DNA of 55,687 nt from NCBI RefSeq assembly GCF_000375345.1, contig NZ_AQXD01000002.1:1-55687 (forward strand). Direction: 5' to 3'. Each line of letters opens with the position of its first letter. Position 1 is the first letter of the stretch. Both the position numbers and the translations under genes were made by a program. The DNA is from Wohlfahrtiimonas chitiniclastica DSM 18708. GTDB lineage: Bacteria; Pseudomonadota; Gammaproteobacteria; Cardiobacteriales; Wohlfahrtiimonadaceae. Shown here piece after piece: positions 46,142 to 51,379 of the stretch. Below the pieces are notes generated by a model. It did not search any database. It was not told the origin of the DNA and worked only from the letters and a program-made list of their open reading frames with translations.

Positions 46142-46183
46142 TTGATTACGATCAAGGATCGAAGGTAAGGGCTAGGCTATACT
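46142..46183 (+). promoter_or_regulatory. Class II FNR-type promoter before a small membrane protein
   Basis: TTGATTACGATCAA (46142-46155) is a perfect FNR-type site. A TATACT -10 lies at 46178-46183, predicting a start at 46190. The centre of the site is then exactly at -41.5, the classical activating position. No good -35 hexamer is present, as expected for an activator-dependent promoter. Confidence 0.7.
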
Positions 46184-46226
46184 GATCTCAGTGGTTCCTA
46201 CAACTCTACTAACAAGGGGGATGAAG

Positions 46227-46355
46227 ATGGGTTGGTTTACGATGCCGGTGATGTTCAGTTTATTAGGTGTGGCTTTCATTATTGGGTTTGCTGCATGGAT
46301 GTATTGGTTTGTGAGTTCAAAAATTAAAGAGGAAAACTCACAAAGCCAATCATAA
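46227..46355 (+). CDS. Small single-helix membrane protein (42 residues), FNR-controlled candidate
   Basis: Short gene with a strong AGGGGG (46215-46220) six bases before the ATG; an ATG at 46221 is too close to it. The product begins MGWFTMPVMFSLLG, has one hydrophobic helix of about 20 residues, and a charged tail (SSKIKEENSQSQS). It resembles the DUF3149 group of tiny membrane proteins in layout (helix, then K/E-rich tail), but I cannot confirm that. It stands alone downstream of phoU with its own FNR-type promoter, so a role in low-oxygen membrane function, such as a small oxidase subunit, is conceivable. Confidence 0.7.
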   Translation: MGWFTMPVMFSLLGVAFIIGFAAWMYWFVSSKIKEENSQSQS

Positions 46356-49132: not shown

Positions 49133-50695
49133 ATGGCACAAACAATACAGACAAAGAAAAAACGCGGTCTTCTAGGCTCGCTCTTCACCATCAGCGCATG
49201 GACGTTGGTTTCACGCATTTTAGGGCTTGTGCGTGACATCGTATTTGCAAGCTTCTTTGGTGCAAGCGCCATGATGGATGCCTTTAATGTGGCGTTTAGA
49301 ATCCCGAATCTCTTTCGCCGATTTTTTGGGGAAGGCGCATTTAACCAATCTTTTGTGCCGGTTTTCAGTGAATATTATGAGAAAAAGCGTAATCAACTGC
49401 CGCTCTTTGTGGCAGAGGTTTCCGGTTCTTTAGGCATTGTGCTCCTTGCGATTACTGCCCTTGGCATTCTTTTTGCACCAGAATTGGTGACGGTGTTTGC
49501 CAGCGGCTTTAAAGCGGATCCTGAGAAGTTTGCCTTAACGGCGGATTTGGTGCGCATCATGATTCCGTATGTCTTTTTGATTTGCATGCTCGCGATGTAT
49601 TCAAGTATTTTAAACTCATTAGATCGTTTTGCGCTGCCTGCATTGTTGCCAAGTTTGTTGAACATCGCTTTAATCATTGGTGCATTTGTGAGCGTGGAGT
49701 TTTTAGAGATTCCGATCATGGGCTTAGGTTATGCTGTTTTGATTGCAGGGATTTTGCAATGCATGATTGTAATGATGAGTGTGCACCGCCAAAATTTATT
49801 GACGAAAATGCCGCGCGTTGCCTTTGGCGCACCGGGCGTAAAGCAGGTGATTGTGTTGATGGTGCCCGCTTTAATCGGCTCATCAAGCAGCCAAATTAAT
49901 ATTCTGATTAACACACAATTGGCATCGCGTTTAGAAACAGGCAGTGTGACATGGCTCTATTATTCGGATCGTTTGGTGGAATTTGCATTGGGCACGGTTG
50001 CAGTTGCGTTAGGCACAGTTGTGTTGCCGAAATTGTCCCGTTTAAATGCATTAAATGATCGTGAAGGCTTTGAAAAAACCGTCAATTGGGGCATTCGATT
50101 GGCGCTGGTTTTGGGTGTGCCATCAAGCATTGGGCTGATCATTTTGGCAGAACCTTTATTGGCGCTGCTTTTCATGCGCGGCGCTTTTACTTTGTATGAT
50201 GTGAAGATGTCCGCCTTGAGCTTGGTCACCTATGGCACAAGCATTGTGGCGTATTTTCTCATTAAGATTTTAGCGCCCGTGTATTACTCAAGACAAGACA
50301 CCAAAACACCTCTGAAATTTGGTTTAGTGGCCATTGGTGTGAACATTGCCTTACAATTTGTCTTGGTGCATTATTATGCGCATGCAGGGCTTGCACTTTC
50401 GACCTCGATTGCGGCGTGGGTCAATGCAATGCTGTTGATGATGGGTTTGCATCATTTGGGCATTTATCGCATTCAGCGCCTATGGACAGGGCAATTGTGG
50501 GTGATTGTGCCTGCAAATATTATGCTCGGTCTTTTCTTATATTGGGTCTCAACGTATCAGGACTTTTGGTTTGATTCAGGCTTATTGCTACGCTTAGCGG
50601 CGCTTGTAGTGGTTATGATGGTGGCATTGGTGGGTTACTTTGCAACGCTACATGTGCTTGGATTCTCTGTGAAACAATTCAAAAATGTCTCGTAA
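49133..50695 (+). CDS. murJ: Lipid II flippase MurJ
   Basis: Essential flippase that moves lipid II to the periplasmic face for peptidoglycan synthesis. The 520-residue protein has about 14 membrane helices. The N-terminal SRILGLVRDIVFASFFGASAMMDAFNVAFRIPNLFRRFFGEGAF run is the MurJ/MviN signature (cited here as SRILGLVRDIVFA, DAFNVAFRIPN and RRFFGEGAFNQSF). Charged residues in the central cavity are in place, for example the R in FRIPNLFRR. Monocistronic. Confidence 0.96.
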   Translation: MAQTIQTKKKRGLLGSLFTISAWTLVSRILGLVRDIVFASFFGASAMMDAFNVAFRIPNLFRRFFGEGAFNQSFVPVFSEYYEKKRNQLPLFVAEVSGSLGIVLLAITALGILFAPELVTVFASGFKADPEKFALTADLVRIMIPYVFLICMLAMYSSILNSLDRFALPALLPSLLNIALIIGAFVSVEFLEIPIMGLGYAVLIAGILQCMIVMMSVHRQNLLTKMPRVAFGAPGVKQVIVLMVPALIGSSSSQINILINTQLASRLETGSVTWLYYSDRLVEFALGTVAVALGTVVLPKLSRLNALNDREGFEKTVNWGIRLALVLGVPSSIGLIILAEPLLALLFMRGAFTLYDVKMSALSLVTYGTSIVAYFLIKILAPVYYSRQDTKTPLKFGLVAIGVNIALQFVLVHYYAHAGLALSTSIAAWVNAMLLMMGLHHLGIYRIQRLWTGQLWVIVPANIMLGLFLYWVSTYQDFWFDSGLLLRLAALVVVMMVALVGYFATLHVLGFSVKQFKNVS

Positions 50696-50700
50696 ATACA

Positions 50701-50714
50701 TTGATCTGGATCAA
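50701..50714 (+). promoter_or_regulatory. Perfect FNR-type site between murJ and luxS
   Basis: TTGATCTGGATCAA matches TTGAT-N4-ATCAA at all ten defined bases. It starts five bases after the murJ stop. A -10 for class II activation would be near 50735-50742; AATTAT and TAAATT are present there but are weak. No coding gene lies downstream before a terminator at 50867. Confidence 0.55.
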
Positions 50715-50746
50715 AAAGTAAAGTTTTGTATGTAAATTATCCATGT

Positions 50747-50893
50747 GTAAATTTTTGTTTGAGCTTTCTGATCATTTCGCGTATTGTATCACCTACCAAG
50801 CAACTACAGACTGAATGACACTGCACAAGTTTGAGAAATAACAAGGTTACATAACAATAATTGAGCAAGCGCCTAAAATTAGGCGCTTTTTTT
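50747..50893 (+). ncRNA. Candidate FNR-controlled small RNA
   Basis: Between the convergent genes murJ and luxS there are about 200 non-coding bases. They begin with a perfect FNR-type site and end with a one-sided rho-independent terminator. The expected transcript of about 145 nt is A/U-rich and mostly unstructured before the terminator, as in Hfq-binding RNAs. It contains UAUCACCUACC (near 50788), which is complementary to Shine-Dalgarno sequences. Start and length are estimates. The alternative is a long murJ 3' untranslated region. Confidence 0.45.
50867..50893 (+). terminator. Rho-independent terminator (plus strand only)
   Basis: AAGCGCCTAA (50867-50876) and TTAGGCGCTT (50879-50888) form a perfect 10-bp stem, followed by seven T (50887-50893). 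On the minus strand no T tract follows, so it does not serve luxS. Confidence 0.9.
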
Positions 50894-50902
50894 ATGTAGT
50901 GT

Positions 50903-51379
50903 TTAGATCACTTTGCGTACAAATGCATCCTCACTGATGCCTTGTTTTAAGATGATTTTTGCCCATTCTTTTGCAGAATGTAGCGAATGATCCTTATAGT
51001 TACCGCAGGCAACACGCGCAATGCCTTGCACCTGATCAATGGTGTAATCATCTTTGACGATGGTTTCAAGCGTTGCTTTCAGGGCTTTGGCAACATCAGT
51101 TGCGCTCGGTTCACCCCATGCAATCAAATGAAAACCTGTGCGGCAGCCAAAGGGCGAGATGTCAATGATGCCTGCTAAATGATTGCGCATCAAATCAGCA
51201 AAAATGTGCTCCATGGTGTGTAATCCACAAGTTTCGATCGCCACTTCATTCGGCTGAGTCAAGCGTACATCAAAATTGGTGATCACATCGCCTTTAGGGC
51301 CATGTTCTTTGGCGATTAAGCGCACATACGGCGCAAGCACTTTGTCATGATCAAGGGTAAAACTTTCAACTTCTGCCAT
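50903..51379 (-). CDS. luxS: S-ribosylhomocysteine lyase LuxS
   Basis: Splits S-ribosylhomocysteine to homocysteine and the AI-2 precursor DPD. The metal site is complete in 158 residues: HTMEH (about 54-58) and the cysteine in [12 protein letters not shown] (about 124-135). The reactive Cys in SPFGCRTGF (about 83) is also present. It recycles the methyl cycle and may make the AI-2 signal. AGGAG precedes the start. It lies 45 bases downstream of comM in the same direction. Confidence 0.97.

Follow-up and report, generated by a model that had tools for sequence, protein, structure and literature searches.

A candidate FNR-controlled short transcription unit between murJ and luxS of Wohlfahrtiimonas chitiniclastica

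Introduction

FnrS, a small RNA of Escherichia coli and other Enterobacteriaceae, works with Hfq. In the literature considered here, small RNAs under direct FNR control are reported from few lineages and are not homologous to one another, the examples being the enterobacterial FnrS and NarS and a gonococcal RNA (PMC8139620, PMC3032703). At E. coli fnrS, FNR is placed at −42.5 (PMC3688515) or at −41.5 (quoted in PMC3032703). The FNR-induced RNA of Neisseria gonorrhoeae, also called 'fnrS', combines an FNR box, a short transcript and a terminator and is not an fnrS homologue by sequence; for it, a class II site and a 5′ stem-loop were predicted and anaerobic induction was measured (PMC3032703). 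PMC8139620 reviews further small RNAs linked to FNR. Here we describe an element of this layout between the convergent genes murJ and luxS of Wohlfahrtiimonas chitiniclastica DSM 18708, within a stretch of 55,687 nucleotides (nt) of contig NZ_AQXD01000002.1 (positions 1 to 55,687, forward strand; hereafter the window, to whose numbering plain coordinates refer). From sequence comparison we tentatively read the element, with a confidence just short of even, as a short non-coding transcription unit that is controlled by FNR and lies inside what would otherwise be the murJ 3′ untranslated region (UTR). Literature searches on Wohlfahrtiimonas, on FNR small RNAs and on antisense or convergent RNA at luxS returned no paper on this element among the matches listed; the matches connected with the genus dealt, by their titles, with decomposition of the human mouth, blood RNA of Ebola patients and a burying beetle.

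Results

The element opens with a perfect FNR box of the form TTGAT-N4-ATCAA (TTGATCTGGATCAA, 50701–50714), which starts at the sixth base past the murJ stop codon and, as the original prediction had stated, lies between two convergent genes. Pfam and NCBIfam matches identify these as murJ (lipid II flippase; 49133–50695, plus strand, its stop codon ending at 50695) and luxS (S-ribosylhomocysteine lyase; 50903–51379, minus strand), separated by an intergenic region of 207 nt; because both genes end at the element, no protein needs a promoter there. At the luxS side stands a predicted intrinsic terminator, AAGCGCCTA(AAAT)TAGGCGCTT followed by a T run (50867–50893), which consists of a hairpin with a 9-bp stem at 50867–50888 and is the sole terminator-like site found between the stop codons of murJ and luxS. 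It reads as a terminator on the plus strand only, in agreement with the original prediction, and no minus-strand terminator was found between luxS and murJ in the window. From the terminator and the putative promoters P1 and P2 described below, we predict a short non-coding transcript on the plus strand (50760–50893), which would measure ~134 nt from P1 or ~100 nt from P2. The stretch had been described as free of genes, and the spacer indeed contains just two open reading frames (ORFs) of at least 30 amino acids (aa), a 30-aa frame on the plus strand and a 43-aa frame on the minus strand, both with TTG starts; a small protein, for which these were the sole candidates, was rejected as an explanation of the element.

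Judged by murJ, the closest named relatives are Wohlfahrtiimonas G9077 (98%), W. populi (85%), W. larvae (82%) and two metagenome-assembled genomes (MAGs; 81%). In all six Wohlfahrtiimonas genomes compared, luxS follows murJ in the opposite orientation (judged by eye), and the element is present in four of the six, namely the window, G9077, W. larvae and W. populi. The FNR box is perfect in three of them (the window, G9077 and W. larvae), and in W. larvae all 10 specified letters are kept while two of the four spacer letters are changed. The plus-strand terminator is kept in 4/4 genomes with the element; its loop or stem is changed in W. larvae and W. populi, where the GCGCC...GGCGC stem is retained and the loop differs. 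The spacers of the two MAGs (L040 4561–4640 and L041 4191–4270) are short and carry one hairpin with terminator features on both strands.

As a neutral yardstick we took identity at fourfold-degenerate sites of murJ, which was 78/187 for the window and W. larvae, 55/166 for the window and W. populi and 87/170 for W. larvae and W. populi. For W. populi the murJ frame lacks part of its 5′ end and contains one unknown residue, and the baseline of this species was therefore computed from the last 450 codons; the binomial P values treat sites as independent. In every pair, identity across the box and the 44 bases that follow it lies well above the baseline, with 43/59 identical positions between the window and W. 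larvae (P 1.2e-6), 48/59 between the window and W. populi (P 3.5e-14) and 46/59 between W. larvae and W. populi (P 2.1e-5). The last pair is also above baseline in the P2 stretch (25/30, P 0.0003) and in the body of the element (51/73 compared with 87/170, P 0.0009). A DNA search with the window element matched 7/40 genomes, its own included; within the genus the matches were to G9077 (whole element) and W. populi (first 67 bases), and outside the genus the terminator end alone was matched. A murJ tree groups W. larvae and W. populi with the MAGs at a support of only 75/73; this grouping, if right, would mean that the element was lost, and not gained elsewhere, in the history of the MAGs.

Promoters were sought with a sigma-70 scan weighted by consensus frequencies, for which the 99.5% and 99.9% background levels were 6.4 and 8.2. 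Two putative plus-strand promoters occupy matching places in all four genomes with the element. P1 (50726–50753) comprises a −35 TTGTAT (50726–50731), 16 nt and a −10 TAAATT (50748–50753), which would start transcription at ~50760 and put FNR at about −52.5. Across the four genomes it takes the form TTGTAT-16/17-TAAATT with FNR at −52.5 or −53.5, and it scores 6.5 in the window, where it ranks fifth, and in G9077, and 7.1 in W. larvae and W. populi. The P1 hexamers sit in the invariant words GTTTTGTAT and GTAAATTTT, the two longest of the conserved block. P2 (50759–50787) comprises TTGAGC, 17 nt and TATTGT, with a predicted start at ~50794 and FNR at about −86.5. It is the top-scoring promoter in 4/4 genomes with the element (8.4, 8.4, 9.3 and 7.9) and reads TTGAGC-17-TATTGT in the window and G9077, TTGTAA-17-TATTAT in W. 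larvae and TTGTAA-17-TAATAT in W. populi, with FNR at −86.5 or −87.5.

In E. coli, FNR sits at −41.5 ± 4 in 19 of the 23 promoters that it activates directly and whose starts are known, an exception among activated promoters being pitA at −56.5, and the directly repressed promoters include ndh (−50.5), pdhR (−50.5) and cydAB (−53.5) (PMC3688515). The best-conserved promoter pair of the element gives FNR at about −52, near the repressed positions of E. coli, and the 'anaerobic' label of the original prediction is thus not established. On geometry alone, repression of the predicted RNA by FNR appears about as likely as activation, that is, an aerobic RNA about as likely as an anaerobic one. A hexamer at N18 from the box, which reads TAAATT, GATATT and TATATT in the window, W. 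larvae and W. populi, respectively, would place FNR at about −37.5 and makes a class II-like position, and hence activation, possible. A class II FNR promoter starting at 50749 was considered and is not favoured, the N22 hexamer being TTATCC, though the N18 hexamer exists. Also set aside was a leftward promoter from the palindromic box, whose best hexamer is a 4-of-6 match (TTGAAT at N18) and which would run antisense into murJ.

Within the body, UAUCACCUACC (50787–50797, plus strand) had been proposed to pair with ribosome-binding sites. The stretch is present in the window, but the nearest relative, G9077, already differs (UGUCACCUACU), and W. larvae and W. populi lack any counterpart. Folding of the window RNA gave z-scores of −1.3 (50760–50893), −0.7 (50749–50896) and −2.7 (50794–50896). 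W. larvae carries an 11-bp inverted repeat right after P2 (z −4.6), a perfect repeat, GGTCTGCCTCATTGAGGCAGACC, at L039 2892–2914 that is not in the window lineage, and at that position W. populi forms a weaker hairpin (z −3.1 with the terminator, +0.4 without the full terminator). An Rfam cmscan of the whole window at the gathering threshold reported a 5S rRNA and a tRNA only. FnrS, which we take to be a family in the Rfam library searched, had no match at the gathering threshold in the window or at E ≤ 5 in 50650–50950, which bears out the original view that the element is not FnrS by sequence. Assignment of the element to another known RNA family was rejected; seven rows appeared at E ≤ 5, all below gathering (the best being a Phe leader at 29.6 bits compared with 55), and we read them as terminator-like chance matches.

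The genome has an FNR regulon, with a cluster-cysteine regulator and an excess of perfect FNR boxes. The FNR protein (235 aa) scores 251.7 bits with the NCBIfam Fnr model (cut-off 228), carries C-X2-C-X5-C near its N terminus and is the one match to HTH_Crp_2 in the genome; hfq is encoded as well. Perfect TTGAT-N4-ATCAA boxes number 28 compared with ~3.6 expected from base composition, and the pattern read backwards, used as a control, had 1 match; a rough ORF caller places 12 of the 28 between genes. The window holds 13 box matches with at most one mismatch compared with 6.6 in shuffles, and 4/100 shuffles reached 13.

Two other boxes of this genome were noted. The perfect box at 46142–46155 in the window has TATACT at exactly N22 and is followed by a 44-codon ORF (46221–46355, MKMGWFTMPV...), the product of which is membrane-protein-like with a weak, below-cut-off likeness to DUF3149; box and ORF are also found in G9077 and W. 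populi. The region 46142–46355 looks like an FNR-activated small protein, and its box with TATACT at N22 shows the picture of a class II FNR promoter in this genome. A box at L053:1501 (G000:C1:326300) lies upstream of a pyruvate formate-lyase-like gene (identified by eye), with TATAAT ~62 nt after the box (hand-counted), which would put FNR near −82.

A second candidate of the same layout lies outside the window, in a convergent intergenic region at G000:C3:160572-160742 (= L072:723-893; hereafter the C3 candidate). Its box (160572–160585) shares bases with the stop codon of a 238-aa gene, and the gene that it faces is acetylornithine-aminotransferase-like (by eye). Among 21 genomes searched, the stretch after the box is conserved in 6/6 Wohlfahrtiimonas genomes, with the box perfect in all six. 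In the six-row alignment the box is followed by TTGACA and then TGGTAAYTT, and in the five genomes scanned (L082 was left out) the promoter spacing is 16 and FNR sits at −46.5 to −48.5. The body contains the invariant words GTAGCT, CTGAA and GGATATGA and is followed by a terminator. No Rfam family matched at the gathering score; membership of a known family was rejected, the 16 sub-gathering rows (by E value the best was BTnc005, 29.4 bits compared with 174.8; a His leader had 29.8 compared with 49) being read as terminator-like chance matches. A covariance model run on 32 genomes of the order gave a row at E ≤ 0.01 in eight, six of which are the genus; the two non-genus rows, with E 7e-4 and 0.008, are weak, as are those on the opposite strand, and all were taken as terminator matches. 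RNAalifold supports mainly the terminator, and ahead of it the stability does not exceed that of shuffles (z −0.9 to +1.4, five sequences). A hairpin before the terminator, CAUA-GAGGA-UAUG, is present in the consensus fold and in 3/4 full-length single folds, W. populi being the one without it. We presume that this hairpin resembles a CsrA/RsmA site. The C3 candidate is a better candidate for an FNR small RNA than the murJ–luxS element.

Discussion

What comparison of sequences provides at the murJ–luxS locus is the box, the conserved block of box and promoter, the terminator, and genes for FNR and Hfq. In the mechanism that we propose, FNR would bind 50701–50714 and govern how active the adjoining downstream promoter block is, with a start at ~50745–50794, and RNA polymerase would transcribe ~100–145 nt until the plus-strand terminator halts it. 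We picture the product as a small regulatory RNA with little structure, which would work through base pairing and probably together with Hfq. Because the body evolves fast, its targets would be lineage-specific or local.

Several observations weigh against this proposal. A comparison with relatives, envisaged from the outset, upheld the conserved block and the terminator, but in W. populi the right half of the box is altered, leaving TTGAT-N4-GTCAG, and the two MAGs lack the element at this place. Its copies amount to only three effectively distinct sequences. At E ≤ 0.001 the DNA search with the window element missed the W. larvae copy, and the W. larvae element used as a query matched W. larvae and W. 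populi only (21 genomes) and not the window copy; since such searches miss known copies, they are too weak to call the element absent elsewhere in the two MAG genomes. In the window lineage the body is not above baseline (35/79 with W. larvae, P 0.36; 32/79 with W. populi, P 0.10), and the P2 stretch is at baseline with W. larvae (12/30, P 0.64) and marginally above it with W. populi (15/30, P 0.04). Both P1 and P2 fail a 9-of-12 consensus filter; three other promoter pairs in the window body score between P2 and P1, so the case for P1 rests on conservation and not on score. There is no good −10 at class II spacing, where, in line with the weak −10 of the original prediction, TTATCC stands at N22, in contrast to the TATACT of the 46142 box. 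Finally, the body before the terminator (50760–50862) is unstructured (z +1.1 relative to shuffles).

Alternatively, the region would be a plain murJ 3′ UTR with its terminator, and the box would bind FNR with little effect or be a relic being lost. The original prediction had named a murJ 3′ UTR as its main alternative, and it keeps some weight: the scans detected no terminator from the murJ stop codon up to the element, so murJ mRNA should run through it. The baseline body of the window lineage, the degraded box of W. populi and the lack of the element here in the MAGs all fit, and E. coli has 156 operons with an FNR chromatin immunoprecipitation peak but no FNR-dependent change in expression (PMC3688515). 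However, this explanation, which accounts for the terminator and the drifting body, gives no reason why the box and the 44 nt after it are far above baseline in all three pairs and leaves the conserved −35- and −10-like words unexplained; we regard it as somewhat unlikely. A different account of the same drift is that an FNR-controlled convergent transcript acts in cis, complementary to the 3′ end of luxS mRNA that reads through, and ties luxS, and with it autoinducer-2 (AI-2) synthesis and methyl-cycle recycling, to oxygen. Here the body would be free to drift, its target being the opposite strand, while the box, P1 block and terminator are kept, as is seen in the window lineage. A minus-strand terminator is lacking in 4/4 genomes with the element, compared with a two-way terminator hairpin in 2/2 without it (loops up to 14), and none with at least five G-C pairs was found across murJ in the window. 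On the other hand, the terminator contrast may represent one evolutionary event, and under stricter settings (loops up to 8, more T) the hairpin was picked up in one of the two MAGs and on the minus strand only; the luxS read-through is hypothetical, as Rho could end the luxS mRNA, and the above-baseline body of the W. larvae–W. populi pair suggests some constraint on sequence. We consider a cis-acting RNA of this type unlikely.

That the box and conserved block form a distant-acting binding platform, on which FNR and another protein would occupy AT-rich DNA with no RNA of its own, seems very improbable. In its favour are the AT-rich composition of the block and strongest words that make poor promoter hexamers, but both neighbouring genes end here, leaving no gene promoter nearby, and the plus-strand terminator is kept. 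We also hold it to be improbable, although less so, that the genus has two FNR-controlled RNAs unrelated to FnrS, the murJ–luxS element acting in cis on luxS read-through and the C3 candidate kept genus-wide, both perhaps switched off by FNR. The FNR-controlled transcription unit in the murJ 3′ UTR, which we favour with the reserve stated above, would, if real, add a lineage-specific RNA to a second one that all six genomes of the genus compared retain, and would illustrate the ease with which short RNAs are drawn into the oxygen regulon. With its promoter block and terminator kept and its body drifting, it would also be a simple case in which to ask if what matters in such RNAs is their sequence or their transcription opposite a neighbour.

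Compared with known systems, the element probably joins the FNR-controlled small RNAs, its analogues, E. coli FnrS and the gonococcal RNA, being unrelated to it in sequence. As in FnrS, an FNR box would precede a short RNA that is encoded between genes and ends at an intrinsic terminator; the element is likewise intergenic and non-coding, ends at a predicted terminator whose stem is followed by a T run, and belongs to a genome that encodes both FNR and Hfq. The FnrS-like layout of the original prediction is seen in its parts, but an anaerobic, FnrS-like mode is not established, the best-conserved promoter, in contrast to the N18 hexamer, lying off the class II distance: unlike fnrS, the promoter candidates put FNR at −52.5 and −86.5. 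Nor was the conserved pairing region expected of an FnrS-like RNA found, UAUCACCUACC not being kept and the window-lineage body, taken as a whole with its short invariant words, being at baseline. The gonococcal RNA shows that beyond the Enterobacteriaceae, too, FNR can control an RNA without sequence homology to fnrS (PMC3032703); in contrast to it, the window RNA has neither a good class II −10 nor a stable 5′ hairpin, whereas W. larvae has a strong hairpin there. NarS, at the 3′ end of narK in E. coli and Salmonella, offers the likeness of an FNR-linked small RNA at an mRNA 3′ end (PMC8139620), while the FNR box of the element lies past the murJ stop codon, inside the 3′ UTR. The element might also be counted among 3′ UTR-derived small RNAs that have their own promoter and share the terminator of the host gene, given its predicted promoter and the lack of any terminator detected ahead of it. 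In FNR position, P1 at −52.5 resembles the FNR-repressed ndh, pdhR and cydAB promoters of E. coli (PMC3688515), which drive proteins, whereas P1 is a predicted promoter of a short RNA.
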